Below, one piece after another: positions 2,104-35,808 of a stretch of 36,521 nt of DNA. How positions within the stretch are numbered: the first letter of the stretch is position 1; each line of letters begins with the position of its first letter. The DNA comes from a virus. A program made the position numbers and the translations under genes. The stretch spans positions 1 to 36,521 of the IMG/VR virus record IMGVR_UViG_3300025789_000089; one strand, 5' to 3'. The notes beneath the pieces are model-generated. The model saw only the letters and a program-made list of their open reading frames with translations, made no database searches and was not told where the DNA came from.

Positions 2104-3081
2104 CTATGTGTTTAAGTTTGGGTCCCATTCATTTTCAAAATCTAATCCAGTAAAAGATAAAGATATTGATTTATCTAAAGCTTCCACTGTGTGCCACCAA
2201 CAAAATGGCATAAAGATGGCGTCTCCCTCATTGACCGTTGTCTCGATGATCTTGACATCTTTCATCAACGGAAATTTTTCAAAGTCAATATTTTTGTTGG
2301 TGAGCTGACTGAATATCGTGACATGGTTATACACGCGAGGTGTGTCAAGAATAGAAACAATTTTCCATTTTTTTGAACCGACGATTTGTACGTTTACCAA
2401 TCCCATAACATCTTGATGCATAGTGGTGTAAGACCCTTTCGAGCCCATCCATAAAAAGCTGGCACCATCATTGGGTGGACGTTTAATAAACTCTGGAAGT
2501 GTTCCAATTGCTTTGTACAGCTCAGGTAATTTTTCAATCAATCGATTGTTTGCCGTAATGTATAAATTATTTGTTTCATCCGTAGAAAGAAAGTAATCCA
2601 ATAAATCGTGCAATTTAATTTTTTGTTTATGGTTGTTCATATGCAACTCATATTCTTCTTCAGAGTCGCGGTTGCCCATAACTTCAATGTCGGTATTGTT
2701 GAAGTTGTTTCTCATGTACTCAAATGACCATACATTTTTGTCCCAGTCATTTGTAAAATTTTTAATAACGACTGGCCGCATGGTGAGCCAATATTTTTCA
2801 AAGAATTCTTGCTTGCTTGGCATTTCAATAACATCTATTTGCTCATACATTGGGTTTTGTTCCCACATCATTTGAACACTTCTCAATGTGGCGGCAAATT
2901 TGATTTTTTCTCTGTGCAGGCCTTTTAAAGCCAAATATGTCGGAGAGGCGTAAACCGTTTTTACTTCATTAAGAACGTCTTTTAACGCAATACCACGGTC
3001 TAACATGATGTTGGCCAAGTAATCTTCAGAGTTTCCTCTCACAAGATTTTCAGCAAACCAAACCTTCCATGATTCGTTCAT
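2104..3081 (-). CDS. JmjC/cupin_8-type Fe(II)/2-oxoglutarate-dependent oxygenase
   Basis: The 325-aa protein has an N-terminal helical region (residues 1-80), then a double-stranded beta-helix oxygenase core. The entry segment is KYWLTMRPVVIKNFTNDW (97-113). The metal site is visible: SYTTMHQDVMGLVNVQIVG gives His222 and Asp224, and EGDAIFMPFCWWHTVE gives the distal His297. SKKWKI after the first motif supplies the Lys expected to bind 2-oxoglutarate (Lys237/238). All three iron ligands are present, so it is likely an active hydroxylase or demethylase-type enzyme. The substrate (protein residue or nucleic acid) cannot be told. The start overlaps the upstream stop as ATGA, placing it firmly in the replication/recombination operon rather than as a recent cargo insert. 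Sequence features around the site match the cupin-like JmjC family best. Confidence 0.85.
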   Translation of the reverse strand: MNESWKVWFAENLVRGNSEDYLANIMLDRGIALKDVLNEVKTVYASPTYLALKGLHREKIKFAATLRSVQMMWEQNPMYEQIDVIEMPSKQEFFEKYWLTMRPVVIKNFTNDWDKNVWSFEYMRNNFNNTDIEVMGNRDSEEEYELHMNNHKQKIKLHDLLDYFLSTDETNNLYITANNRLIEKLPELYKAIGTLPEFIKRPPNDGASFLWMGSKGSYTTMHQDVMGLVNVQIVGSKKWKIVSILDTPRVYNHVTIFSQLTNKNIDFEKFPLMKDVKIIETTVNEGDAIFMPFCWWHTVEALDKSISLSFTGLDFENEWDPNLNT

Positions 3082-18467: not shown

Positions 18468-19702
18468 TAGAATGCACCGCCAGAAATACCACCGCTAAAA
18501 GAACCAGTTCCTGTGACAGATATGCCAGAAGAATTAACATCAAGAACCTCTGAACCCAAGACAGTGATGCCAAAACGACCAGTTCCAGGGCGATAAATAC
18601 CTGTGGAAGTCTCAGAACTAAAGTTCAAAGTTGGGTTTGATACCGTACCATTTGCAATACTCAAAGCAGTCGCACCAGCTTGTGTTGTATTCGCGTTTAG
18701 GAAATTTTTACCATCACAGAACAATGTGGCTTGGCCACCAGAAGGCACCGTAGCAGTAGAACCACCTGAAACACCAGTTGTACAAGTCAATGTGTAAGCG
18801 CCAGATGTCTGGTTGCTGATCACATAAAGATTTGCTACTGGAGGAAAAACAATTGTTTGATTTGAAGTTAATGTGCCAGCGTATTCTTGGAGCGTATTGG
18901 ATGCTTGGCTGGCAGACAAAGTGTATGAGCCACCCGTTACGCTGAGAGTCAATACAGAGTAAACAAAGGTTGAGCTGGTGCCGTAACCAACAGTTACAAA
19001 ACCAGTGCCTGTGCAGACGATGAAGGCAGAATTCCCTGGCTGGAAGGTCTTGGTGGTAGCCCCGTCAATCAAATCTGAACCAGAGCAAGCCAAAGTCACT
19101 GTACCAGTTCCGTTGTTCTTGAACAAAAAGAACCAACGACTGCCCAGTGTTCCAGATGCAGAAAGGGTTACGGTAGTGGTGCCGCCAGTCCAAATGTAAA
19201 TAGATGCTTGGTCTCCAGCAAGGAAGGTATAACTTGCTGTTAATGAGTTGACAACATATGCTTGATTCAATGTGGCTGAAATTGGTTCTAAACCGTATCC
19301 AGCAAGCGTTGATGCAGTACCACTATATGTACCTGCGCCAAAAGCCAAAACACCCCATGTGCCGTTCTGAGTGGTGTTGTTGGTCAAATAAATGTATTCG
19401 GCTGAACCAGCAGGCACAGAAACAATACTGGTTCCAGAGTATCCAACCACTGTAAACGCATAAGATCCAGTGTTTCGGATCATTGCATCTTGGCCTACTG
19501 ATACTTGGGTGGCATCAGGCATGGATACCGTGTACCCATTACCAGTAAAACTAATGTCCATGATACGGGCGGCTGGGTTCCCAGTAGTCCCGTTGATTGG
19601 CCAAAACAGCGTTAAATTGGCCGTTTGGTTTTGATACAATTCATAGCTAACATCGGTTGGCTGAATCGTGTTGCCAGTAAATGGAGAGGTATAAGTTGTC
19701 AT
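18467..19702 (-). CDS. Tail fibre / surface beta-protein, 411 aa
   Basis: The sequence is rich in Ser, Thr, Gly and Val with few charges. It starts MTTYTSPFTGNTIQPTDVSY, with two similar beta blocks (FLFKNNGTGTVTLACSGSDL and LYVISNQTSGAYTLTCTTGV). The end, TGIYRPGTGRFGITVLGSEV then GSFSGGISGGAF, is the usual end of phage fibre proteins before a host-recognition or chaperone domain. The final GGISGGAF parallels GGINGGTF at the end of the 722-aa fibre (31053-33221), suggesting a shared terminal motif. It overlaps the gp10-like gene by one base. Likely a trimeric fibre or tail decoration. Confidence 0.75.
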   Translation of the reverse strand: MTTYTSPFTGNTIQPTDVSYELYQNQTANLTLFWPINGTTGNPAARIMDISFTGNGYTVSMPDATQVSVGQDAMIRNTGSYAFTVVGYSGTSIVSVPAGSAEYIYLTNNTTQNGTWGVLAFGAGTYSGTASTLAGYGLEPISATLNQAYVVNSLTASYTFLAGDQASIYIWTGGTTTVTLSASGTLGSRWFFLFKNNGTGTVTLACSGSDLIDGATTKTFQPGNSAFIVCTGTGFVTVGYGTSSTFVYSVLTLSVTGGSYTLSASQASNTLQEYAGTLTSNQTIVFPPVANLYVISNQTSGAYTLTCTTGVSGGSTATVPSGGQATLFCDGKNFLNANTTQAGATALSIANGTVSNPTLNFSSETSTGIYRPGTGRFGITVLGSEVLDVNSSGISVTGTGSFSGGISGGAF

Positions 19703-20343
19703 GCATCCACCGCAATGGCTTGACGATCAGCAATACGCAATTTGTCCTCATTCATGAGGGTTTGCATAATTAAATCGTACTGTTGTTGGAAAATAGGCGC
19801 TCTATCATCATTTTTAAGGAAGGGCATGGCTTGGAGAAGCGAGCCAAACAATAAAGCCTGTGGGGCGTATTGTGTGAACCAGTTGGTCTGATTGTATGAG
19901 TCAAGTGGCTGGACTCTTTGGTAGTACAAGACTTCAAAAGAGTAGTTTTGATCTGGCGTCGGTGCCACCAACCAGTTGTCGTAGTCATAGTCAGCGTAAT
20001 ACAAAGGAGTTGAAGTATTTGACTGAATGGGCCAATACTCTTTTAAGTACTCATATTTTCTGAGTAAAACAGGCTGATCGGTATTGGTTGAAGGAATGGT
20101 CAAATTCATTGACACTGTTTTGTGCCAACGTGCAGGTTTTGGGACAATGTTTGATCCAGCCACCATGGTTGATTCTTGGACCGTCAAGTTGCCCAAAAAC
20201 TTGATTTGAGAAGCAATAACTTGCTCCGCCAACATAATAAAAAGTGGAATATTGGAAAGTGTAGTGGCGTCAGTACGCTCCAAATAGGTTTGAATGTTCA
20301 AAACCAAGGAGTCATACGTCATCACACTGGTGCTGGTCGCCAT
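19699..20343 (-). CDS. Head-tail adaptor-like protein (SU10 adaptor / gp4-gp11 group), 214 aa
   Basis: The N-terminal helical part is MTYDSLVLNIQTYLERTDAT, LSNIPLFIMLAEQVIASQIK, and the beta part is PARWHKTVSMNLTIPS and LLRKYEYLKEYWPIQSN. It ends in a helical tail with QYAPQALLFGSLLQAMPFLK. This 'helix bundle + small beta domain + YAP.ALL.G.L..A..FLK' layout matches phage adaptor proteins joining portal and tail. A second adaptor-like protein is at 34166-35239. AGGCACCGAGATT precedes the ATG. It sits directly after the endolysin gene. Confidence 0.72.
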   Translation of the reverse strand: MATSTSVMTYDSLVLNIQTYLERTDATTLSNIPLFIMLAEQVIASQIKFLGNLTVQESTMVAGSNIVPKPARWHKTVSMNLTIPSTNTDQPVLLRKYEYLKEYWPIQSNTSTPLYYADYDYDNWLVAPTPDQNYSFEVLYYQRVQPLDSYNQTNWFTQYAPQALLFGSLLQAMPFLKNDDRAPIFQQQYDLIMQTLMNEDKLRIADRQAIAVDA

Positions 20344-23279: not shown

Positions 23280-23465
23280 TTAATCAAAACCTATGAGTGT
23301 TTTGGCCAATGTTTTGCGCTTTGCCATCTTGGGTGAATCAGTGGATTTCACGGCCAATTTCTTAGCTGGAATCTTTTTGTCAGCAGGCACACCCAAGGCT
23401 TTATGCAAAGAGCCCCGATTTTGTGGTTTAATAGCATCTTGAATCCACTTTTTCTTTTCAGCCAT
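23280..23465 (-). CDS. Small basic conserved phage protein, 61 aa
   Basis: I place the start at ATG 23465 (MAEKKKWIQDAIKPQNRGSL), preceded by TTGGAG with 6-base spacing; a longer frame to 23528 enters the HNH gene on the other strand and is not credible. Residues follow the family pattern 'KKWI..AI.P...G.LH..LGV...KKIPAKKL', ending KMAKRKTLAKTLIGF. It is very basic. This small family is common in phage structural and lysis regions, with no known function. Its start codon shares bases with the start of the plus-strand HNH gene (CATG at 23463-23466). Confidence 0.8.
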   Translation of the reverse strand: MAEKKKWIQDAIKPQNRGSLHKALGVPADKKIPAKKLAVKSTDSPKMAKRKTLAKTLIGFD

Positions 23466-24012
23466 GACAAACTCCAATAGAAAACTTGAAGGGAGAGGAA
23501 AGATTACTCTTATCTGTCCCGCTTGCACAAAAGAATTTCAAATCTTTAAAGCTCATTATCGTGGAAAAACAAATGCTTGCTCTAAAGAATGTTCTCACAA
23601 AATCAAACCCACCAAAGGCAAAACAATGATTGATCATTGTTGCAAAGAATGTGGAAAAGAATTTCAAACAAGAAAAGGCAATGGTGGAACGGGAGATTAT
23701 TGTTCTATACCATGCATGGCTTTGGCCAGAGGCAGAAAAATGTCTGGAGCCAACCATCCAAAATGGAATAATGGGTCTTCTAAACGAACACATAAATCTC
23801 GTCGCGTAATTGCAGATCTTGTAAAAGAAAGAGGCAAGTGTGAAGAATGCGGAGCAACTGATAACCTTCAAGGACACCATATTAAATCGCATTCTCAACA
23901 TCCAGTAGAACGAACTAACCCCGACAACATTCAAGTGTTGTGCGTGGCTTGCCATGCGGGAAAACATCCCAAATTGGCCAAGTTCATTCTTTCTGGACAA
24001 ATTCATGCCTGA
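23464..24012 (+). CDS. HNH homing endonuclease on the opposite strand within the late operon
   Basis: The 182-aa protein has two zinc-ribbon pieces (LICPACTKEFQI with ACSKECSHKI, then CCKECGKEFQTRKG with YCSIPCMALA). Its C-terminal HNH motif is CEECGATDNLQGHHIKSHSQ followed by NIQVLCVACHAGKH. The first ATG (23464) has no binding site. A strong GGGAGAGGAAAG lies 10-15 codons inside, just before an in-frame ATT, so the real start may be later. It is the only plus-strand gene in 27 kb of minus-strand late genes, and its end overlaps the 113-aa gene stop by 10 bases. It is likely a selfish free-standing HNH element. How it is transcribed is unclear; a promoter inside the flanking coding region would be needed. 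Confidence 0.85.
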   Translation: MTNSNRKLEGRGKITLICPACTKEFQIFKAHYRGKTNACSKECSHKIKPTKGKTMIDHCCKECGKEFQTRKGNGGTGDYCSIPCMALARGRKMSGANHPKWNNGSSKRTHKSRRVIADLVKERGKCEECGATDNLQGHHIKSHSQHPVERTNPDNIQVLCVACHAGKHPKLAKFILSGQIHA

Positions 24013-24354: not shown

Positions 24355-25233
24355 TTAAAAAGTGATTGAACCAGACGCAGTAAATGTGTACACAATGTAC
24401 CCATTCGCAGTTGTTTGGCTTGGAATTCCAGTAGTGGATGCGGCTAGTTTATAGCTTGATGGATAACGGATGATGACAATACCTGAACCACCTGCGGCTC
24501 CATTTGAAACATATGCTCCTCCGCCTCCACCGCCGCCAGTATTTGCTGATCCCGCCGAGCCTGATGTTGTTGATGAACCATTTCCACCACCCCCAACACC
24601 ACCATTCCCTCCTGTACCATTACTACCACCTCCACCACCACCCGCATAAGTGGTAACTGTGCCATTTATGGATGATGCTATGCCTGCTCCACCATTTCCA
24701 GCAAATGCGCCAGAAATTGGCGAAACATTTAATCCTATTGTTCCTGCTCCACCACCACCTGCACCAGCATAATATGAAGCATTTGCAGTACCTCCAGCAT
24801 TTCCTTGACCACTTGTGCCAGATCCACCTACATTTGCCGCTGTAACAAGAGTTGCTCCACCACCACCAGAACCACCTGCAACACCAACAGTGTTTGATGC
24901 GCCACCACCTCCACCATTTGCTACAAAATTACCTGCAGACGATCCAGATGAAGCGGCTAATAAAACAGAATTTCCGCCTGTACCGCCAGTTGTACTTGAA
25001 CTGCCACTACCAGCGGCGCCAACTGTTATCCAACATTGTGTCCCTTGAGTAACAGATGTAAGCCCAGCAATTACACCGCCAGCACCGCCACCGCCTCCAC
25101 AAGAATACCCGCCACCGCCTCCCCCAGCAACCACAAGGTACTCAACAACAGGAGGAGCAATTCCAGTCCAATTCTGTGCTTTGACAGCTTGGCTGACTTG
25201 AGATAGCGTCCAAAGTCCAGAATACTGCGCCAT
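24355..25233 (-). CDS. Glycine-rich tail adhesin paralog 1 (type B), 292 aa
   Basis: The short N-terminal anchor (MAQYSGLWTLSQVSQAVKAQ, then NWTGIAPP) is followed by the shared core start VEYLVVAGGGGGG. Poly-glycine loops alternate with short strands (CWITVGAAGSGSSS, then GNGGAGIASSINGTVTTYAG). The common end reads GSGIVIIRYPSSYKL, then YIVYTFTASGSITF. This glycine-rich domain builds polyglycine-II type bundles in phage adhesins such as T4-like gp38. It presumably contacts host surface molecules. It shares the 'AGIASSI.GTVTTYAG' stretch with paralog 3, defining type B. It is the last of four paralogs in transcription order. Confidence 0.82.
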   Translation of the reverse strand: MAQYSGLWTLSQVSQAVKAQNWTGIAPPVVEYLVVAGGGGGGYSCGGGGGAGGVIAGLTSVTQGTQCWITVGAAGSGSSSTTGGTGGNSVLLAASSGSSAGNFVANGGGGGASNTVGVAGGSGGGGATLVTAANVGGSGTSGQGNAGGTANASYYAGAGGGGAGTIGLNVSPISGAFAGNGGAGIASSINGTVTTYAGGGGGGSNGTGGNGGVGGGGNGSSTTSGSAGSANTGGGGGGGAYVSNGAAGGSGIVIIRYPSSYKLAASTTGIPSQTTANGYIVYTFTASGSITF

Positions 25234-25234
25234 A

Positions 25235-25681
25235 TTAGGCTCCAGTTGAGGGTGTAGGTGTAGGTGTTGGGGTTACTTCAGGTGTGGGAGTTGGAGTGGC
25301 TTCAACCACAGGAGTTACATCAACCCAAGCCTTTGTAGGCTCATCCCATGCATAGATTTTGCCTTCATGAACAGGCATAGCAACAGGATTTACCCATGTC
25401 CATGTGGGTGCGCCAATCGTGAATGAATCGCAAGAAACACCGTTTCTGTCTACTGGGCGTGGAGCATGGAAAACATCGTTGTTTTTGTCGTAAACATAAC
25501 CAATACCAGCATAGTTGGCTCTCAAAGGAGTACCGCCAAGTTTATGTTCACCAGCAATTGTGTTGTATGAAGTTTGTACCCACTCAGATGGGTTGCCCCA
25601 ATGACCTGTTGCTAGTGTTTCAGCATCAATAACGATGACTTGATCGACAATTCCGTTTGTAATATGGGCAAAATGACTCAA
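25235..25681 (-). CDS. Conserved phage virion-region protein with Thr-Pro tail, 148 aa, TTG start
   Basis: I place the start at a TTG (25681-25679) preceded by AAGGAG at 6-base spacing, giving (M)SHFAHITNGIVDQVIVIDA. A longer frame to 25756 runs into the upstream HNH gene and is not credible. The core shows WVQTSYNTIAGEHKLGGTPL, then YAGIGYVYDKNNDVFHAPRP and PTWTWVNPVAMPVH. These are hallmarks of a widespread small family in cyanophages and other marine or freshwater phages ('HFA.I..G.V..VIV......WVQTSYNT......LR.NYAGIGY.YD...DAF.PP'). The tail (EVTPTPTPTPS) parallels the VTP linker of the 908-aa protein. The function is unknown, possibly a virion accessory. Confidence 0.8.
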   Translation of the reverse strand: MSHFAHITNGIVDQVIVIDAETLATGHWGNPSEWVQTSYNTIAGEHKLGGTPLRANYAGIGYVYDKNNDVFHAPRPVDRNGVSCDSFTIGAPTWTWVNPVAMPVHEGKIYAWDEPTKAWVDVTPVVEATPTPTPEVTPTPTPTPSTGA

Positions 25682-25691
25682 AATATTCTCC

Positions 25692-26180
25692 TTAATGATG
25701 ATTGGCAAATTCGCCATGATACAAATCTCTTGCCTCTTGTGCAACCAAATCAGCAAGTTCTATGTCTTGAAAAAAACCAATGTGTTTTTTCTTTCCTTTG
25801 AAACTTAAAGAAACGCTCCAAGCATTATTACTTTTTACCCAAGCAACATTTTTAAATCCAGATCGATTGTTTTTGTGTAATGTTCTATTTCGACAATTTT
25901 CTGATTTTGTTGCAACTCTTAAGTTTTCAATTTTATTATCTAATCCATTGCCATTTTTGTGATCTACAAATTCTGGTAAAAATCCGTGGTGATATAAAAA
26001 TACAAGTCTATGAGCTTGATACCTTTTCCCATCAAGACCAATGGTGTAATAATCTTTTGTTGCTTTTAAAGAACCTGCAACATCGCCCGCTTTACCAAGA
26101 CGAGATGTATTTTTTTTGCGTATTAAATGACCATCTTCTCGATATTCAAACATTTCTTTAAGACGTTCTTGGGTTACCAT
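25692..26180 (-). CDS. HNH homing endonuclease with C-terminal AP2-like DNA-binding domain
   Basis: The 162-aa protein has DGHLIRKKNTSRLGKAGDVA, then QAHRLVFLYHHGFLPEFVDH, KNGNGLDNKIENLRVATKSE (the HNH core with 'VDHKNG...NLR') and a C-terminal AP2-like segment GFKNVAWVKSNNAWSVSLSF followed by KHIGFFQDIELADLVAQEAR. It is markedly AT-rich compared with the adhesin genes around it. It sits exactly between paralog 2 and the 148-aa gene; its TAA is embedded in the AAGGAG ribosome binding site of the next gene. It is likely a selfish free-standing homing gene with little disruption of the late operon. Confidence 0.88.
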   Translation of the reverse strand: MVTQERLKEMFEYREDGHLIRKKNTSRLGKAGDVAGSLKATKDYYTIGLDGKRYQAHRLVFLYHHGFLPEFVDHKNGNGLDNKIENLRVATKSENCRNRTLHKNNRSGFKNVAWVKSNNAWSVSLSFKGKKKHIGFFQDIELADLVAQEARDLYHGEFANHH

Positions 26181-26189
26181 GTTAACTCC

Positions 26190-27128
26190 TTAAAATGTGA
26201 TTGTTCCACTGCTTGTGAAAACGTAAATCTGATAGCCCGAATTGTAGAAGACTTGTGGGCCACCAGTAACAGATGCAGGAGGTGCTGTGTTGGCTGGGTA
26301 GCGAATGATTACTATGCCTGAACCGCCATTACCGCCCGCTGTGAAGCTTACATAAGCAGAATAAGCCCCCGATCCACCACCTCCACCAGTATTTGCGCCA
26401 CCTGCGCCACCCATACCGTTTGGTGAAGCGTTTCCACCATTTGGTGCCCCTCCTAAAGCAGTTGGAGGGGTTCCAGCATTGCCGTTTCCTGGTGCGCCTG
26501 CACCCCCGCCACCTACACCACCATTACCGCCAGCCGATGTGTTTGATGATCCAGCATAGCCACCACCTCCACCTCCACCAGCATAAAATTGTTTTGATCC
26601 TGTAATACTTGAAACAGTTCCAGTTCCGCCTTGACCAGCTTGTACATTGGTAACACCAGAAGTACCCGCAGAACCAGAACCGCCCCCGCCTCCTCCAGTG
26701 GTTGCATCTGAACTAGTTACTCCAACAGCACCAGCATATCCTTGACCCGATGTTCCTGTTCCTGCTGTAGTGCTTTGATAAGCACCCCCACCAGAACCAC
26801 CATTTGATCCATTTGATCCATACGCACCGCCGCCACCGCCAGCAGTTGCAGTAATAGAACCAAAAATAGAATTATTTCCATTTGATCCAGATACGTTGTA
26901 TGTTGAACCTGAAGACCCACCAGCTCCAACAGTAACGGTAATACTTGAGCCAGAAGTAACTGCATATCCCGTAGCAGTAAGAAGACCACCAGCGCCTCCT
27001 CCGCCACTTGCTCCACCAGCTCCCCCACCACCACCAGCCACAACCAAATACTCTACAGTTGCAGTAGGCAAAGATGTCAAAGGGTTTAATGTTCCTGTAA
27101 TAATTCCCGCCAAATATGACTGACTCAA
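26190..27128 (-). CDS. Glycine-rich tail adhesin paralog 2 (type A), 312 aa
   Basis: The protein starts MSQSYLAGIITGTLNPLTSL, then VEYLVVAGGGGGAGGASGGG. It continues GLLTATGYAVTSGSSITVTV, later GGTGTVSSITGSKQFYAG and GSGIVIIRYPANTAPP, ending YQIYVFTSSGTITF. The 'LL.ATGYA(V/I)T.GSSITVT' and 'GGTGTVSSITGS' pieces are shared with paralog 4 and define type A. It overlaps the GIY-YIG gene by 4 bases on its upstream side. Predicted to be a surface-exposed glycine-rich receptor-binding or tail-tip protein. Confidence 0.82.
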   Translation of the reverse strand: MSQSYLAGIITGTLNPLTSLPTATVEYLVVAGGGGGAGGASGGGGAGGLLTATGYAVTSGSSITVTVGAGGSSGSTYNVSGSNGNNSIFGSITATAGGGGGAYGSNGSNGGSGGGAYQSTTAGTGTSGQGYAGAVGVTSSDATTGGGGGGSGSAGTSGVTNVQAGQGGTGTVSSITGSKQFYAGGGGGGGYAGSSNTSAGGNGGVGGGGAGAPGNGNAGTPPTALGGAPNGGNASPNGMGGAGGANTGGGGGSGAYSAYVSFTAGGNGGSGIVIIRYPANTAPPASVTGGPQVFYNSGYQIYVFTSSGTITF

Positions 27129-27832
27129 GATATCACCTCTTTTTTCTTGTTACGAGCTTCAATCATCATAGCCCTAAATTCAGGATCAGCCCATTTAGCT
27201 TTTAGTCTATCAGACTGCGCTTTATTTTGTTCTGGTGTTGCAACATAAGTACGCACGCCTATATGTGCTTGACGCAATTTTTCTTTGCCTTCTTCAGGCA
27301 TTTTCCAACCTGTTCGTGCTTTAACGTGCTGTTCTGATTGTTTACGACCTTTTCTTGTCGCACTCATTTTTGCAATTGTTTCAGGTTTAGCTTTTTTGCC
27401 AGTAAGAGATGCACTAATTTTGGCTTTTTGCTCTTCTGAAAGAGGTCTACCCAAATACTTTTGACGCATGAACTCACGAAACTCAGGTGATCTTTGCGTA
27501 CCATACATATGATGAAATTCACCTCTAAACCCTGTATAACCAAGACCTCCTGCGGTAATGTTATAACCTAATGGTGTGCGTGTTTTATAGCCTTCAATCA
27601 GCTTAGATTCCATCTCATAACAGTATTCTGCGGTGCTTTTGCAAAGTATCTGCAAAGAAAAATTATCTTTACCATGCGCTTGTATGGCATTTCTTAATAT
27701 TGATCTTCGACTATCTTGTGGTTTTTCACAATGTTTTTTAAACCGTTTTTCTGGGTTTTTTGAAACGCCAATATACTCCATGCCATTAACGGCATTAGTA
27801 ATTTTGTATAAATAGGCAATTTCTTGTTGCAT
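27125..27832 (-). CDS. GIY-YIG homing endonuclease with NUMOD3 repeats
   Basis: The N-terminal nuclease shows IAYLYKITNAVNGMEYIGVS followed by NPEKRFKKHC, a variant of GIY-YIG (YLY...YIG) with Arg27 in the ...PEKRFKKH helix, and MESKLIEGY with the catalytic Glu. Downstream are NUMOD3-type DNA-binding repeats (YLGRPLSEEQKAKISASLTG, KKAKPETIAKMSATRKGRK, TGWKMPEEGKEKLRQAHIG). It sits between adhesin paralogs 3 and 2, with a 4-base overlap to the latter and a 2-base gap to the former. It is a free-standing selfish gene that probably cuts the homologous adhesin junction in a co-infecting phage. It is AT-rich relative to its neighbours. Confidence 0.9.
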   Translation of the reverse strand: MQQEIAYLYKITNAVNGMEYIGVSKNPEKRFKKHCEKPQDSRRSILRNAIQAHGKDNFSLQILCKSTAEYCYEMESKLIEGYKTRTPLGYNITAGGLGYTGFRGEFHHMYGTQRSPEFREFMRQKYLGRPLSEEQKAKISASLTGKKAKPETIAKMSATRKGRKQSEQHVKARTGWKMPEEGKEKLRQAHIGVRTYVATPEQNKAQSDRLKAKWADPEFRAMMIEARNKKKEVIS

Positions 27833-27834
27833 GA

Positions 27835-29295
27835 TTAGAACGTCACAGTTCCGCTACCAGTCCAAGTGTACACACGATTCTTGTATCCTAGTCCTGTTGC
27901 AAATGGGGATATTTGGTTCCAAGATGGTGTCCCAGTTGTTGACAATATGATATTGTTTGATGAATTGTCAACAAGATAAGATCCAGATACGGTATTCAAA
28001 AGGAGTAATGTTCCAGAAATTGCAGTCAATGGCTTTGTTGATGGTGTAAAATTACTTGTATAAACTGCTGTATTTGTTAATCTTGTATTGGTAATATAAC
28101 CTTGCAAATACTCGTTGTTAGTTACATCAAGATCACCAATAGCAAATGCCGTTGCTGAAAGATTCAAAGAAGATGTGGCAGTTCCAAAAGAAACACCATT
28201 GATATAGCCAGTTAATGTAGTTCCACTTCTAACATAAGCAACGTGATACCATTGACCAACTTTTAAAGAACCTGTGCTAGAAGTTAAAATTCTTCCAACA
28301 CTATTGTTGTAAATAGTTAATACACCAGTTGAGTCAGTTCCTATATTGAATCCATTTGTTCCCCTTGTTGTAGAGAAGAAATCTTCGTAATCAACAAGCG
28401 CATTTAAATATACCCAACATTCAATTGTAAAGTTTCCTGTCCCAACTGAAGAAGTAAGATTTCCAGTTAAATAACTAGAACCATTAAAGTAAACACTACC
28501 ACTACCACTTGTAGAAGCAGTATATGTTCCTGTTAATGCTGATGGTGCGTTATAAGTGTCTGGGTATGAAATGATGACGATGCCTGAGCCGCCCTGACCA
28601 GGTGTTCCACTTTGACAGCCACCTCCTCCACCTCCAGTATTGACAGTGCCATTTGTTCCATTAGATGAACCTACTGCTCCTGCACCTCCACCCCCTGCAC
28701 CACCAGAGCCAGCAGTTCCACTAATAATTCCACCGCCACCACCACCAGCGTAAGTAGTTACAGTACCTGATATTGAACTAGCAATACCTGCACCACCATT
28801 ACCAGAAACACTAGAAACACCAGTTAAACCAACAGTTCCTGAACCACCACCACCTCCTGTAGGGCCAACACCGCCTTGTGGAAAATTTGCTCCACCAGCG
28901 TTTCCTTGGCCAAAAGTTCCTTGTCCACCAAAATAATTAACGCTTCCACTACCTGCCGCACCGCCTCCTGAACCACCAGATGCAACATTACCTGAAGTGG
29001 CAGAATATCCACCACCTGTTGCACTTATATTTCCAAAAATACTATTAGTTCCTGATGAGCCTGAACCAGTACCACCAGAACCTACAGTAACAGTAATTGA
29101 TGATCCATTAGGAACATTTACAATGCCTTGAAGCAATCCACCTGCGCCTCCACCACCACCCGGACTTGTTGAACCCCCACCCCCACCACCAGCAACAACT
29201 AAATACTCAACATAGTTAGTCGCAATAGAGCCTGTCCAAGCCTTTTGAATCAAGCCTTGTAACTGTTGTTTAAGATTAAAGATTCCGTTAGGCAT
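27835..29295 (-). CDS. Glycine-rich tail adhesin paralog 3 (type B) with LamG-like insertion, 486 aa
   Basis: The order is: N-terminal anchor MPNGIFNLKQQLQGLIQKAW; core VEYLVVAGGGGGG (about 29-41) with poly-Gly loops to residue 230; GSGIVIISYPDTYNAP; then an extra domain at about residues 264-440. That domain, with VYFNGSSYLTG, NFTIECWVYLNALVDYED, KVGQWYHVAYVRSGTTLTG and YLQGYITNTRLTNTAVYT, is LamG/concanavalin-like and could bind carbohydrate. It ends STTGTPSWNQISP and YTWTGSGTVTF. In the other paralogs the 'YP' and 'STTG' pieces are separated by only a few residues, so the LamG domain is inserted into that linker. It shares 'AGIASSISGTVTTYAG' with paralog 1. Confidence 0.82.
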   Translation of the reverse strand: MPNGIFNLKQQLQGLIQKAWTGSIATNYVEYLVVAGGGGGGSTSPGGGGGAGGLLQGIVNVPNGSSITVTVGSGGTGSGSSGTNSIFGNISATGGGYSATSGNVASGGSGGGAAGSGSVNYFGGQGTFGQGNAGGANFPQGGVGPTGGGGGSGTVGLTGVSSVSGNGGAGIASSISGTVTTYAGGGGGGIISGTAGSGGAGGGGAGAVGSSNGTNGTVNTGGGGGGCQSGTPGQGGSGIVIISYPDTYNAPSALTGTYTASTSGSGSVYFNGSSYLTGNLTSSVGTGNFTIECWVYLNALVDYEDFFSTTRGTNGFNIGTDSTGVLTIYNNSVGRILTSSTGSLKVGQWYHVAYVRSGTTLTGYINGVSFGTATSSLNLSATAFAIGDLDVTNNEYLQGYITNTRLTNTAVYTSNFTPSTKPLTAISGTLLLLNTVSGSYLVDNSSNNIILSTTGTPSWNQISPFATGLGYKNRVYTWTGSGTVTF

Positions 29296-29298
29296 AAT

Positions 29299-30177
29299 TT
29301 AAAACGTAATCGTTCCTGATGCGTTGAACACATACACTCTGTATGGGCCTGAAATATACGTTGTGGGTGAGCCTGTTGTTGATGTGGCTTGAGATAGATA
29401 AGCAGGGTATCTGATGACTACGATTCCTGAACCGCCTGCTGATCCAACACTATTAACTTGTGCAATAGCCCCACCACCTCCACCAGTATTGGCAAGCCCA
29501 GTAGTTGATGATGAATAACCTCCATTACCACCACCACTTGAACCTAAAGAAATATTAGTGGTTGAATTTCCAAGTCCACCACCGCCTCCACCTGCATATT
29601 GTATTGGTGAGCCTGTGATTGAAGATACTGTACCTGTCCCACCATTACCAAAATTGTTGCCTGTTGGTGTAATTCCTGTAGAACCTGATCCACCACCACC
29701 TCCTCCACCATAATAAGATGCAGAAGCTACACCACTACCTCCAGCATTACCTTGGCCTGATGTTCCAGAACCACCTGAACCACCTGTGCTAAATGAAGAA
29801 CCTCCACCACCTGAACCACCACTAGCGCCAACATTTAGTGAAGAATTAACACATATAGCCCCACCGCCACCGCCTGTAGCAGTAATGCTTCCAAAAACGG
29901 AATTACCACCATTTCCACCAATTGCGGTGCTTGTACCAGCAGTTCCACCAGCTCCTATGGTTACAGTAATACTTGACCCAATAGTAATTGCATAACCAGT
30001 AGCTTGGAGCAAACCACCAGCGCCACCGCCACCTCCTCCATTACCAGCGCCTGTTACACCACCAGTACCTCCACCACCACCTCCAGCGACAACAAGATAC
30101 TCTACTGTTGTTACAGGATAGTTCAGCCCATTGTATTGAGCACCAGTAAATCCACCAGGGTGTGATTGAAACGTCAT
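29299..30177 (-). CDS. Glycine-rich tail adhesin paralog 4 (type A), 292 aa
   Basis: The order is: anchor MTFQSHPGGFTGAQYNGLNY; core VEYLVVAGGGGGG; GLLQATGYAITIGSSITVTI; later GGTGTVSSITGSPIQYAG and GSGIVVIRYPAYLSQATSTT; end YRVYVFNASGTITF. It is closest by motif to paralog 2. It is the first of the four in transcription order, and only three bases separate it from paralog 3. The poly-glycine design is as in phage receptor-binding adhesins of the gp38 type. Confidence 0.82.
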   Translation of the reverse strand: MTFQSHPGGFTGAQYNGLNYPVTTVEYLVVAGGGGGGTGGVTGAGNGGGGGGAGGLLQATGYAITIGSSITVTIGAGGTAGTSTAIGGNGGNSVFGSITATGGGGGAICVNSSLNVGASGGSGGGGSSFSTGGSGGSGTSGQGNAGGSGVASASYYGGGGGGGSGSTGITPTGNNFGNGGTGTVSSITGSPIQYAGGGGGGLGNSTTNISLGSSGGGNGGYSSSTTGLANTGGGGGAIAQVNSVGSAGGSGIVVIRYPAYLSQATSTTGSPTTYISGPYRVYVFNASGTITF

Positions 30178-30180
30178 GGT

Positions 30181-30573
30181 TTAATCAGAGATTGATTCGT
30201 AAGAAACAACAAAAGTGAGATTGTTTGCAGTACCACTTGTGATGCTGATACATGAGTTTTCATTCAAATAAAACGCTGTGGTCTTATCGCTCAAAATAAC
30301 AGTTGAATTGGGTGGCACTGAAATAGTCGATGCAAATGGATATGCAGTACCGCCTGATGGGGCAGAACCTTGAGCCGTTGCATTGGTGTAAATAGCCGCA
30401 GTTGCATTGACTGCACTTGAGCTGGTATTACAAGCCATGATGGTGTCGATCTTATAAACCAAACCACTTGAAGCGGCATTGTTCAATAAAGACACTGCTG
30501 TTGTGCCAGAAGGCGTGTATTGAGTCGTTAGTCCGTAAATTGATGCGACCGTGACGATATTAGGATTTGACAT
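30181..30573 (-). CDS. Small beta-rich virion protein, 130 aa
   Basis: The protein begins MSNPNIVTVASIYGLTTQYT and has SSGLVYKIDTIMACNTSSSA, VNATAAIYTNATAQG, then TISVPPNSTVILSDKTTAFY and ENSCISITSGTANNLTFVVS. It is a beta-sandwich-like, low-charge protein; 'YKIDTIMA.N......A....Y' and 'P..STV.LSDKT..FYL.EN' match small capsid-decoration or tail proteins in other phages (recalled). It lies between the fibre gene and the adhesins, just 3 bases before paralog 4. Confidence 0.75.
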   Translation of the reverse strand: MSNPNIVTVASIYGLTTQYTPSGTTAVSLLNNAASSGLVYKIDTIMACNTSSSAVNATAAIYTNATAQGSAPSGGTAYPFASTISVPPNSTVILSDKTTAFYLNENSCISITSGTANNLTFVVSYESISD

Positions 30574-30606: not shown

Positions 30607-31053
30607 CTAGAAGCCAAACACCATTGCCATCGCAATGGATTTACCTGTTGAAATACCACCTGATACTGCTGTCCATGTTGGAGGTGATGACCCGTTTGAC
30701 TGCAAATAATAACCTGCTGTTCCAGCCGCAGTGAATGCATAAGCAGAACCTGTTCCATATGCCACCGCACCCGCTGTAGGAGTTGCAGTACCACCAGTAC
30801 CACCATATCCAACAGCAATTGTTGTTGCATTCCATGTACCCGTTGTGACAGTGCCAAGGGTTGTTATTGCAGTTGTACCTTTGCTTGCAACAAGTGTGTT
30901 GTATGTATTGGTTCCAGTGCCAATAAACAAAATGCCATCGGTAATATTGACTGCAAGTTCACCAGTGGTAATGGTGCCGCTTCCTGTGGTTGGAACGTGA
31001 CCAGTGGTGCTACTGTTGTAGGTAATGATTGGGGTATAGCCTGGTTGAGCCAT
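30607..31053 (-). CDS. Small fibre-like surface protein, 148 aa
   Basis: It begins MAQPGYTPIITYNSSTTGHV, continues TGELAVNITDGILFIGTGTN and TVTTGTWNATTIAVGYGGTG, and ends SPPTWTAVSGGISTGKSIAM. 'GTWNATTI.V.YGGTG' is a repeat element common in phage fibre proteins, and 'GELAVNITDG.LF' matches the N-terminal virion-attachment part of many fibres. It overlaps the 722-aa fibre gene by one base and may form a composite fibre with it. Confidence 0.78.
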   Translation of the reverse strand: MAQPGYTPIITYNSSTTGHVPTTGSGTITTGELAVNITDGILFIGTGTNTYNTLVASKGTTAITTLGTVTTGTWNATTIAVGYGGTGGTATPTAGAVAYGTGSAYAFTAAGTAGYYLQSNGSSPPTWTAVSGGISTGKSIAMAMVFGF

Positions 31054-33221
31054 TAGAATGTTCCTCCATTGATGCCACCAGTAATTGTACTGTTTGTGGC
31101 GTTAATTGTAATCCCTGTGCTTGTGTATTGGGGTTGATTTCCAGTAGCACTTGCAGAATAAGTGATGTAGTTTGTTGCCCCTGATCCAGCAGTCAAAGCA
31201 AGGTTCGTTGCGTTTGTTGCATTTGTTACCGCAGTGGTACCAATTACAGAAACCACTTGGGCGGCAGTTGCGGCAGTAAACGCAGAAGTTCCATTGCCGT
31301 AAGCCAATCCACTCAGTGTTGCAACTCCAGTTCCACCGTTACCAACCACCAAAGTACCAGCTAAAGTGATAGCCCCAGTGGAAGCAGTTGAAGGTGTTAA
31401 TCCTGTTGTTCCAGCGCTGAATGTTGTCACACCGCCAGCAGTACCATTTGATGCCGTGGTAATCTGACCTTGGGCATTTACAGTAATGTTTGCATTTGTG
31501 TATGACCCAGCAGTGACAGCAGTGTTTGTGATGCTGAATTGACTACCAGTTAGAGTTAATCCAGTGCCCGCTGTATAAGCCCCAGGGCCCGCAATTTGAA
31601 CAAAGTTAATCGCCGTTGTACCAATCGTGATTGGCAATGCAGTTGTTTGAACCCACTGCGTGTTGGTGTTAACGGTTCCGCTAAGAATAAAGGTGGTATC
31701 ACCTGGTGCGATTTCATTCGTACCAGTACCAGTTTGGTCATAATCTGTTGCTCTGGTCAATACCCAATTTGTAGAACCAGAACCTTGATTTGTAACTGTA
31801 TAAATACCGTTATACGCACCATTTGATTCATTTTTAACCAATACTCTGGAGGCATTGCTTACATCAGTTGATGTGAATGTATGTCCATCAATAACCAATG
31901 CGACTTGTGTTCCTGCATTAGTAATTGTTGCTCCAACACCAGATGTTCCATTGTTATATGTTACTGAGCCTAAATCTGCGGTTGTTCCATAGTTACAAGC
32001 GGCATGGTAGTTGACGTTTGAAATTGCGGCATCAACGTATTGTTTGGTCGTCAATTGCAAAGCTTGTGTGGGGTCTTGGGTTACCGCAACCGATGTCAAT
32101 CCACCCAAAGTGAGGCTTGTTGCGCCTAATGCTATGCTTGTTGTACCAATGGTAACAGTGCTGTTGGTCAGAGAACTGTTGCCAATATTGCTCAGTGTAT
32201 TGGATGAACCACTGATGGTTTTATTGGTCAGCGTTTGGGTGCCAGTTAATGACACGCCATCTGTAATTCCATAACCAGACAATGTTGTGGGCGTAGAAGT
32301 GATTGAACTCCATGCAGGAGTCACAGTCACATTGCTTGCCGCTGTCAATTGTCCTTGAGCGTTAACAGTAAATGTACCGACTTGAGTGGCTGAACCATAA
32401 CTACCAGCAGTCACTGCGGTATTTGCAATCGAAATGGTGCCTGTAGAGGTAATAGGACCACCTGTAAGGCCAGTTCCAGTGGCAATTGAGGTAACACCAG
32501 TGCCAGTTGTCACCGCGCCCCATGCGCCGTTTGCATATCCTTCAAATAGACCAATATCGCTGTTGTACCTGAACATACCATTGACAGGTGATGCAGGTCG
32601 AGCAGAGGTACCGCCGATGGGAAAGGTCAAACTAGCGGACCCTGGTACCACTGGATTGTTGGCCAACCCAATCGTCGGAGCCCCACCCGATCCGTTTCCG
32701 TTTGAAACAGAAATTTGATTGGATGCCCCAACCAATGTCACTTGGCTGACTGCCGTTCCATTGATCGTGACAAATCCAGTGCCTGAAGTACTAGCAAAAT
32801 TGGCCAAAGTACCAGATATAGAAAGCGTTGGGTTGCCAGATATACCGTCACCATTACTGATTGACAGACCGTTGCCAGTGACTGTTATGGAGCGATTGAC
32901 AATTGTATTTGCCGTTGATTTGACCAACATCCCATAACCAACAGACTCCAAGCTGGCAGATGAGCCATTCAAAGAGATTTGGATACTAGATTGTGCGCCG
33001 TTATCAGTGATGCCCAAGCCTGTGCCTGTAGCCAAATATCGGCTAGAGGCCAAGGGGGAAGTAGTTCCAACAGTGATAAAAGTATATGAACTGAGTGCGG
33101 GAGTGGCTTGAATTGCACCAGTCGTTGTTTGGACCGTCACTCCATTTTGGACGACAGGAACCGCCTCTGTGCCAGTCAGAGCAGAGGCTTGGGGTAATTG
33201 GGTTATCTGTACATTTGCCAT
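31053..33221 (-). CDS. Long tail fibre protein with collagen-free beta repeats, 722 aa
   Basis: The N-terminus MANVQITQLPQASALTGTEA, then VPVVQNGVTVQTTTGAIQ, is the usual virion-proximal end of phage fibres. The middle holds repeats (ISNGDGISGNPTLSISGTLA, NTAVTAGSYGSATQVGTFTV with NAQGQLTAASNV). The latter is repeated as NTAVTAGSYTNANITVNAQG. A segment QYVDAAISNVNYHAACNYGT followed by VLVKNESNGAYNGIYTVTNQ marks a domain seen in other fibre proteins. The end is GINGGTF. Likely a trimeric host-binding fibre. Start overlaps no gene; the previous gene ends 4 bases upstream. Confidence 0.85.
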   Translation of the reverse strand: MANVQITQLPQASALTGTEAVPVVQNGVTVQTTTGAIQATPALSSYTFITVGTTSPLASSRYLATGTGLGITDNGAQSSIQISLNGSSASLESVGYGMLVKSTANTIVNRSITVTGNGLSISNGDGISGNPTLSISGTLANFASTSGTGFVTINGTAVSQVTLVGASNQISVSNGNGSGGAPTIGLANNPVVPGSASLTFPIGGTSARPASPVNGMFRYNSDIGLFEGYANGAWGAVTTGTGVTSIATGTGLTGGPITSTGTISIANTAVTAGSYGSATQVGTFTVNAQGQLTAASNVTVTPAWSSITSTPTTLSGYGITDGVSLTGTQTLTNKTISGSSNTLSNIGNSSLTNSTVTIGTTSIALGATSLTLGGLTSVAVTQDPTQALQLTTKQYVDAAISNVNYHAACNYGTTADLGSVTYNNGTSGVGATITNAGTQVALVIDGHTFTSTDVSNASRVLVKNESNGAYNGIYTVTNQGSGSTNWVLTRATDYDQTGTGTNEIAPGDTTFILSGTVNTNTQWVQTTALPITIGTTAINFVQIAGPGAYTAGTGLTLTGSQFSITNTAVTAGSYTNANITVNAQGQITTASNGTAGGVTTFSAGTTGLTPSTASTGAITLAGTLVVGNGGTGVATLSGLAYGNGTSAFTAATAAQVVSVIGTTAVTNATNATNLALTAGSGATNYITYSASATGNQPQYTSTGITINATNSTITGGINGGTF

Positions 33222-34165: not shown

Positions 34166-35239
34166 TTATCTAGTATATACACTTATGTTAGGTGAAAAGT
34201 ATTCAGGAGACCTGTCACGTTCTTCATTTTCCACATCAGCAAGGAATTTGTCAGCCATTTTTTCAAGATAAGCAATTCGATTTGCATCAATTGCAGGCAA
34301 TTCCAAGCTCATACGGTGAGCCAGCATGAAAATCACAGCCTCATACCATCTTTGAGGTATTGCCAACTGTCCAGATAGGGATCCAACGTCCTCAATGTAG
34401 GCTGAGTACCATACTGTTGCCTGTACAAATGAAGTATTTGGGACTGGCCACAGTGTAATTGTGGGCTGATTGATTGTTCTTTGGAAATAATACTGGAATG
34501 GCTGGTTCGCAGTGAAGTTTTTGTTAGGTAAGTTGGTGTAATCATCTCTATTTAGTCGTGACATCTCAATTTCACGACTATTATTGCCTAAATACAGCTC
34601 TCTCAACGCCAAAGTTGTGCCATTTGTGGCCACCATGCGGTAGTAGCTGACGTTTGCCCCTGGGTCAATGTCCTGCCACACCCATTGTCCATCTTGAACA
34701 GCCACATTTGTGCCCGTATACAAGGTTTGCCAGTTGGTACCATCAAGAGACGCCTGCAATTGGTAGTTCCAAGTGGCCGTTCCAAAGCCAGCAATGTAGG
34801 GCATGAACCCAATTGAACCGATGTACTGAGGATTGTTGGTCCCGTAGATCACTTCAAAGTTGCCATTTGGTGAATTCTGCTGGCAATAGGTGTTGGTGTT
34901 GTTGTCATAAAGGTTAGAAACGACTCCACCTGCACTCGATGTGTAATTGCCTGAAGGCTGGGCCATTTGGCGATACAAGACGTTTAATGCGTCATTGGCA
35001 CCCACAGGTAGCAAGTACTCATATTGATTCGCTACAAGGCCGATTACAGTCTTATATAGGGCAAAGTATTGAATGCCGCGGTTCATCATGTTGGACAAGA
35101 GAAAATACAAGTTTTCTCTGGCGGCAACTTGCTGTTCTGAAGTGGTTTCTTCAGCTAATTTACCGCAACGACGAACCGCATGATCGATGACGGTTTGAAC
35201 GCTGACAATAGTCTGACTTGTCGTTCCTGAAAAACTCAT
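34166..35239 (-). CDS. Head-tail adaptor-like protein with inserted discoidin-like (F5/8 type C) domain, 357 aa
   Basis: The outer parts resemble an adaptor: VIDHAVRRCGKLAEETTSEQ, RENLYFLLSNMMNRGIQYFA, KTVIGLVANQYEYLLPVGA (1-90), then EIEMSRLNRDDYTNLPNKNF, TLWPVPNTSFVQATVWYSAY and AIPQRWYEAVIFMLAHRMSL (220-357). Between residues about 100 and 220 sits a different beta domain: VSNLYDNNTNTYCQQNSPNG, YQLQASLDGTNWQTLYTG, then YYRMVATNGTTLALRELYLG. This is the pattern of discoidin/F5/8 type C domains, in which 'SLDGTNW' and 'YYR.......ALREL' are typical. It may project from the neck as a carbohydrate-binding decoration. Start overlaps the upstream HNH stop as ATGA. Confidence 0.75.
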   Translation of the reverse strand: MSFSGTTSQTIVSVQTVIDHAVRRCGKLAEETTSEQQVAARENLYFLLSNMMNRGIQYFALYKTVIGLVANQYEYLLPVGANDALNVLYRQMAQPSGNYTSSAGGVVSNLYDNNTNTYCQQNSPNGNFEVIYGTNNPQYIGSIGFMPYIAGFGTATWNYQLQASLDGTNWQTLYTGTNVAVQDGQWVWQDIDPGANVSYYRMVATNGTTLALRELYLGNNSREIEMSRLNRDDYTNLPNKNFTANQPFQYYFQRTINQPTITLWPVPNTSFVQATVWYSAYIEDVGSLSGQLAIPQRWYEAVIFMLAHRMSLELPAIDANRIAYLEKMADKFLADVENEERDRSPEYFSPNISVYTR

Positions 35240-35808
35240 GCCATTTCCTTTTTAGCTTTTAGAAATGCTTTCGTAGCAATCATTTTTGCAATACTTTCAG
35301 CTGATAATGCGGCTTTTGTACCAATTTTATTCAATTGACCATTAGCAATTAAAGGATGAATTCTTCCATGTTCAACATAATGCATTACCCTTAAATTTTC
35401 TACTCGATTATCTGCATGAATTCCATTTATATGATCAACTTGATCACCCTTTTGTAAAGGAAATATAAACGCATCTGCAACCAATCTATGAACCAAAAAT
35501 GATTTACAAGGTTTGGTTCTTACACCGCCATCTCTTAATCTCACTTCAACATAAGGTTTGGTTCTACCATTATCTTTTTTTGGCGTAAGGGCCATGATAA
35601 TTTCAGGCACTGGAACTTCTGAACCGTTCCTACCACGTCTCATCCTAGCCAAAGATTTAACATTGCCAAAATTACTCACTTGGTATCTGCCTTCATAACC
35701 TTTTATGTCTTTCCAAATTTCACCAATTTGGACACTTCCATCTTTGCATTGATGCTCTTGCACGACTGCCCCTTTCAGACTTTTCTGCGATAGGAGCCAT
35801 TCTAGCAC
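35236..35808 (-). CDS. HNH homing endonuclease with NUMOD4, start uncertain
   Basis: The recognisable protein begins at GEIWKDIKGYEGRYQVSNFG followed by NVKSLARMRRG, the NUMOD4 motif. The HNH core is FLVHRLVADAFIFPLQKGDQ followed by VDHINGIHADNRVENLRVMH, and a tail carries AALSAESIAKMIATKAFLKA. The open frame reaches an ATG at 35808, but its first 30 codons overlap the end of the upstream 171-aa gene, and NUMOD4 proteins usually begin just before 'EIWK'. The upstream stop TGA overlaps the Gly-Glu codons at that very point, so the start may be a GTG at 35763 or an ATT near 35724. AT-rich relative to its neighbours; a selfish insert at the 3' end of the upstream gene. Confidence 0.85.
   Translation of the reverse strand: MLEWLLSQKSLKGAVVQEHQCKDGSVQIGEIWKDIKGYEGRYQVSNFGNVKSLARMRRGRNGSEVPVPEIIMALTPKKDNGRTKPYVEVRLRDGGVRTKPCKSFLVHRLVADAFIFPLQKGDQVDHINGIHADNRVENLRVMHYVEHGRIHPLIANGQLNKIGTKAALSAESIAKMIATKAFLKAKKEMA

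Follow-up and report, generated by a model that had tools for sequence, protein, structure and literature searches.

The viral DNA analysed here, referred to as the window, comprises 36,521 nucleotides (nt) of the IMG/VR virus record IMGVR_UViG_3300025789_000089, and all coordinates are those of the window. The phage is podovirus-like: it has an SU10-type adaptor, and one of its tail proteins has relatives among 'phage stabilization protein' genes. Four glycine-rich genes form a tandem array on the minus strand, at the positions and with every motif given in a preliminary description of this DNA. They were numbered as slots in transcription order, from slot 1 (29299-30177) to slot 4 (24355-25233). 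Two protein types alternate along the array, type A in slots 1 and 3 and type B in slots 2 and 4, and each protein begins with a short N-terminal tag. Slot 1 encodes a type A protein of 292 amino acids (aa) with the tag MTFQSHPGGFTGAQYNGLNYPVTT (30106-30177). Slot 2 (27835-29295) encodes a type B protein of 486 aa with the tag MPNGIFNLKQQLQGLIQKAWTGSIATNY (29212-29295); its extra length is a C-terminal Laminin_G_3/ConA-like domain (PF13385, 67.8 bits) located between the end motif of the glycine-rich part and the terminal GTVTF. Slot 3 (26190-27128; type A, 312 aa, tag MSQSYLAGIITGTLNPLTSLPTAT at 27057-27128) has a TTG start that overlaps the stop of a GIY-YIG endonuclease gene. Slot 4 encodes a type B protein of 292 aa with the tag MAQYSGLWTLSQVSQAVKAQNWTGIAPPV (25147-25233). 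All four proteins match phrog_2295 and lie above the curated Pfam cut-off of 24.3 bits for PF21722 (Gly_rich_2), scoring 86.7, 66.9, 65.3 and 74 bits for slots 1 to 4 (65-87 bits). Proline-rich open reading frames (ORFs) at 24815-25048 (+), 26896-27123 (+) and 29786-29995 (+) mirror the glycine codons opposite the array and are unlikely to be genes.

The same four genes were found in the same order in about 20 distinct IMG/VR contigs besides the window, counted from an IMG/VR scan with the four proteins plus three more scans. The common operon order is tail fibre gene, 148-aa gene, 130-aa gene, slot 1, slot 2, slot 3, phrog_7759 gene and slot 4. Wherever the tags are readable, these arrays contain two A and two B genes in strict alternation. 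Contigs L084, L085 and L086 are nearly identical to the window, and L013 carries a fifth glycine-rich copy beside its four-slot array. L013 (IMGVR_UViG_3300028394_002328) is a 335-kb contig, far above the size of the other array carriers, and possibly represents a jumbo phage, a transfer or a misassembly. Because orthologous four-slot arrays occur in these contigs, the array is, judged from sequence, ancient, and is neither a recent duplication nor peculiar to the window phage. The two-gene A-B repeat proposed in the preliminary description is supported, but its duplication was not recent. Searches of phage records with the glycine-rich genes (tblastn and megablast) found nothing, and low-complexity filtering probably explains the empty tblastn result. 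A PDB sequence search with the four slot proteins was empty, a scan of genome contigs found no relatives that could point to a host, and no phage study of the family was among the papers listed in a literature search for Gly_rich_2/PF21722.

For comparison among phages, slots were assigned by gene order alone and the proteins were cut into N-terminal tag, core and C-terminus. Hidden Markov models (HMMs) of the slots had been built from the same sequences, so that their slot assignments are not independent evidence, and the order-only test was used. The N-terminal ~25 residues carry the slot identity: the nearest neighbour of a tag in another phage belonged to the same slot in 76/76 cases. Among 20 phages, the mean tag similarity between phages was 0.35-0.63 within a slot, 0.21 between slots 1 and 3, 0.20 between slots 2 and 4, and -0.01 to 0.03 for other pairs. 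The tags of slots 1 and 3 within one phage share a similarity of 0.20, versus 0.50 for slot 1 between phages. Nearest neighbours of the cores in another phage came from the same slot in 57/71 cases and from the same type in 69/71, compared to a maximum of 50/71 in 1000 label shuffles. The C-terminus is also slot-specific (50/51 nearest neighbours) but shows no A/B signal (0.534 vs 0.528). In the core tree, the division of A from B requires one change (Shimodaira-Hasegawa-like approximate likelihood ratio test, 97), compared to eight changes for slots 1 and 2 against 3 and 4 and seven for slots 1 and 4 against 2 and 3. The tree of tag plus core separates A from B with a support of 100. The grouping of slot 1 with 3 and slot 2 with 4, noticed in the preliminary description from the window, is real: it holds for the tags across 20 phages and for the cores, with one reservation about the core alone that is given below.

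Sequence conservation is higher at glycine columns (0.77-0.86) than at other columns (0.53-0.56), and many loop columns are at 0-3 tenths. Most of the variation falls in short loops that separate conserved glycine runs, and the motifs VEYLVVAG and GSGIVIIRYP are predicted strands flanking the glycine-rich part. Cores nearest to a different slot numbered 14/71, of which 12 stayed within the same type. The clearest case of exchange is slot 4 of the window, a mosaic of slot-4 and slot-2 sequence with a crossover near nt 300-360 of the gene. Over the first 300 nt, the gene follows slot 4 of L007, with identity falling from 91% to 66-74%. From ~nt 300 the match changes to slot 2 of L005, at 79-91% to ~nt 750 and then at 59-66%; the part resembling L005 spans 24484-24934 (~79-91% per 90-nt step). 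Recent gene conversion within phages, a possibility raised in the preliminary description, was rejected, with no general homogenisation of the cores: core similarity of slots 1 and 3 is 0.47 within phages versus 0.45 between phages, and that of slots 2 and 4 is 0.44 in both comparisons.

AlphaFold2 models of slot 1 (type A) and slot 4 (type B) have a mean predicted local distance difference test (pLDDT) score of 89.5 and 90.5, respectively, and their glycine-rich middle contains little helix or strand. In the Foldseek matches listed for the models, the best PDB entries are tail-tip chains of phage Bxb1 (E 3e-4 to 6e-4), the fibre protein gp24 of phage Pam3 and, weakly, the ALK glycine-rich domain. 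Pam3 gp24 matches the type A model with E 6e-3 and a probability of 0.99 but a template modelling score (TM-score) of 0.31, and the type B model with E 7e-2. Many BFVD relatives of the slot proteins have TM-scores of 0.7-0.8.

The complete genome of a podovirus relative (accession number: MW202545.1) shares adaptor, fibre and tail genes with the window at 44-60% identity. After its fibre gene, where the array would be, it encodes an 827-aa tail protein with a Peptidase_S74 domain, and 49 residues of this protein resemble the product of the 148-aa gene of the window (30607-31053, minus strand; 45% over this stretch). The array therefore sits where a relative has an unrelated protein of the receptor-binding type. 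In other phages that have the 130-aa gene, A-like and B-like N-termini stand before FN3, beta-propeller repeat or Laminin_G heads. In several single proteins, among them those of L192, L194, L206 and L260, the A and B motifs stand in tandem in one N-terminus, and in L192 this N-terminus, MSIRYIGGVLSATAATSSTTAASGIWTLDDQMQAKKAGNWP, precedes a glycine-rich head. In L237 and L243, an A-only gene adjoins a B-only gene. The wider tag survey was made with regular expressions and single-tag HMM scores are low, which makes its counts approximate, while the tandem sequences are clear in themselves.

From the slot orthology, A/B grouping, loop variability, mosaic slot 4 and conserved operon order, all observed directly, it is likely that the array is an old, slot-addressed set of receptor-binding fibre tips of a podovirus-like phage, with conserved docking tags and interchangeable heads. 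The short N-terminal tag would fix the place of each protein in the tail, with type A tags for slots 1 and 3, type B tags for slots 2 and 4, and a separate version of its type's tag for every slot. The tag would be followed by a small beta-sandwich with VEYLVVAG and GSGIVIIRYP as its framing strands and the slot-specific C-terminus as its closing part, and the glycine-rich stem between the framing strands would bear the hypervariable loops as probable receptor contacts. Each of the four proteins is most likely held by its tag at a fixed site of the tail or fibre and binds receptors with its head. With tags that stay constant and heads that are free to vary, recombination could swap heads between slots of the same type, as in slot 4 of the window. 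Besides docking to the fibre or tail and receptor binding, we infer trimerisation, the oligomeric state and the simultaneous display of all four proteins. If this is true, several receptor-binding heads would be maintained in an uncultured phage group through a fixed address system, and the combination of one tag per slot with varying heads would offer a sequence-only route to tell docking tags from heads in such tails.

Several points weigh against this interpretation. An approximately unbiased test with the core alone leaves the division of slots 1 and 2 from 3 and 4 unrejected (p 0.45), and the deep core topology is therefore weak. The nearest-neighbour counts are inflated by the close relationship of some of the contigs. 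Solved structures match with low TM-scores (0.30-0.40). The models predict the tags poorly (N-terminal pLDDT 43-55, with a short helix in type B), so that docking is deduced from conservation, and the conserved N-terminus could instead serve secretion, folding or chaperone recognition. For a switchable array, as the preliminary description had suggested, nothing was found in support, and a Pfam scan of the window proteins, which was not exhaustive, revealed no invertase and no reverse transcriptase.

The tandem N-termini of other phages suggest a single module of which A and B may be the two parts. The two tags would then be the halves of a docking domain that is intact in one protein of other phages, and the slot 1/2 and slot 3/4 pairs would rebuild it as A-B heteromers. 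Such a split agrees with the single N-termini bearing both motifs (L192, L194, L206 and L260), with the adjacent A-only and B-only genes of L237 and L243 and with the strict alternation of the ~20 arrays where tags are readable, but the noisy regular-expression survey also shows A-only or B-only genes without an obvious partner, and Pam3 gp24 is a homotrimer (PMC9608196). We consider it rather doubtful. If true, a domain was split between neighbouring genes and the pair was then doubled, giving a tail with obligate A-B adhesin pairs in which an exchange of heads within a type would leave assembly undisturbed. It is also unlikely that the four proteins assemble on one another via their tags, with only one of them contacting the tail, as in phage CBA120. 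Tags of ~25-30 residues are far below the 335-residue TSP4-N of that phage and no window slot has a longer anchor of its own, although four slot-specific N-termini in a fixed order and the four-protein precedent of CBA120 (PMC8825819) favour such a branched complex.

A recent tandem duplication of a two-gene unit, with endonucleases at the seams, would explain the A-B-A-B order and the GIY-YIG gene exactly at the AB/AB seam. It is contradicted by the slot tags, which are closer to orthologues in other phages than to their paralogues (76/76), and most arrays are without an endonuclease at these junctions. A recent event is thus highly improbable, and an ancient two-gene duplication is likely. 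As glycine-rich sequence aligns easily, the shared motifs could reflect only low complexity. The A/B and slot signals, however, reach their maximum in the tags, whose sequences are not glycine-rich, and they survive label shuffles, which never match the A/B signal. A composition artefact is refuted by these results and its probability is close to nil. The reading as docking tags with interchangeable heads is the one that we prefer.

Two homing endonuclease genes on the minus strand interrupt the array of the window. A GIY-YIG/NUMOD3 gene identified in the Pfam scan (27125-27832) is inserted at the slot 2/3 junction, and an HNH_3 gene (25692-26180; PF13392, phrog_99) lies between slot 3 and the phrog_7759 gene. 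The end of each gene seems to provide a ribosome-binding site for the gene that follows. In L007, slot 3 starts within a few bases of slot 2 and the phrog_7759 gene directly follows slot 3 with no endonuclease, and the slot 2/3 junction of L005 is likewise without a homing endonuclease gene. A GIY-YIG gene is present at the same junction in L059 and L180, L017 has an HNH gene elsewhere, L072 has another inserted gene, and most arrays have none. The array endonucleases are, on this comparison, mobile passengers and local insertions. The preliminary description was right to see insertions in the junctions, but the slot 1/2 junction of the window and most other arrays are without any. An ORF on the strand opposite the array, 23464-24012 (+), encodes 182 aa with zinc-finger/HNH-like Cys and His motifs, and 35236-35808 encodes a NUMOD4/HNH protein. 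With these, the probable endonuclease genes of the window would be four (23464-24012, 25692-26180, 27125-27832 and 35236-35808).

Upstream of the array, also on the minus strand, a 722-aa tail-fibre-like protein (31053-33221) matches phrog_8745 (tail fiber protein, E 1.4e-28), and its relatives precede the array in other contigs. The small 130-aa protein (30181-30573, minus strand), kept directly before slot 1, shares 42% identity with a 'putative lectin' of phage DSL-LC04. The phrog_7759 gene (25235-25681, minus strand), kept between slots 3 and 4 and absent from the preliminary description, encodes 148 aa from a TTG start at 25681 and is possibly an accessory or assembly factor. Its product has no Pfam match and no significant PDB match, and its identification as a known tail-fibre assembly protein was rejected for this reason. 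Relatives of phrog_7759 adjoin glycine-rich or lectin-like tail genes elsewhere, in L164 (17265-17621, -), L165 (8001-8351, +) and L166 (8046-8393, +), hinting at a general accessory role. Elsewhere in the window, 34166-35239 (-) encodes 357 aa with an F5/F8 type C (discoidin) domain at residues 101-212 and, at 210-343, a sub-threshold match to SU10_adaptor, another SU10_adaptor protein is encoded at 19699-20343, and 2104-3081 (-) is a Cupin_8/JmjC-type hydroxylase gene (120 bits).

Among known systems, Pam3 gp24 (PDB 7YPX/7YFW) forms a trimeric fibre in which an N-terminal docking domain is combined with a TNF-like and a glycine-rich domain; receptor binding is proposed for the distal ends of the glycine-rich domain (PMC9608196). 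The slot proteins may resemble it in a putative docking N-terminus, a predicted beta-sandwich and a probable glycine-rich receptor-binding domain with a variable distal tip, and they give a sub-threshold profile match at their entry strand. In the myocyanophage Pam3, a single fibre gene encodes a protein with a long helical docking domain, and there is a tail fibre assembly (TFA) chaperone, whereas the window has four paralogues, 25-30-residue tags and no recognised TFA. Qa/Qb of mycobacteriophage Bxb1 (PDB 9D93) is the best Foldseek match of both models, but its TM-score is 0.37-0.40 and it belongs to a siphophage tail tip, another context. PF21722 (Gly_rich_2) and phrog_2295, the families of all four slots, comprise proteins of marine and freshwater phages, and their descriptions are without a four-slot A-B-A-B operon. 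The gp38 adhesin of the T4-like phage S16 likewise has a glycine-rich stem and hypervariable distal loops, an idea reached via the Pam3 comparison (PMC9608196). The four slot proteins, however, have no Pfam GP38 match up to E 0.1, and the 50 Foldseek matches listed per model do not include the S16 gp38 structure, although Foldseek may miss distant ones. The host-recognition role that the preliminary description suggested for the array is probable, but the gp38 type is unsupported.

The four tailspikes of CBA120 form a branched complex. In Ackermannviridae, as is presumed for the array, four receptor-binding proteins have conserved N-terminal parts for assembly and heads that vary (PMC8825819). 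The tailspikes differ in the 335-residue anchor part of TSP4 and in heads unrelated to the slot proteins. We know of no alternating tag types among them. The four CBA120 tailspikes would be the nearest functional analogue of the array. On the preferred reading, the array is a variant of the known multi-adhesin tails with conserved anchors and variable heads.

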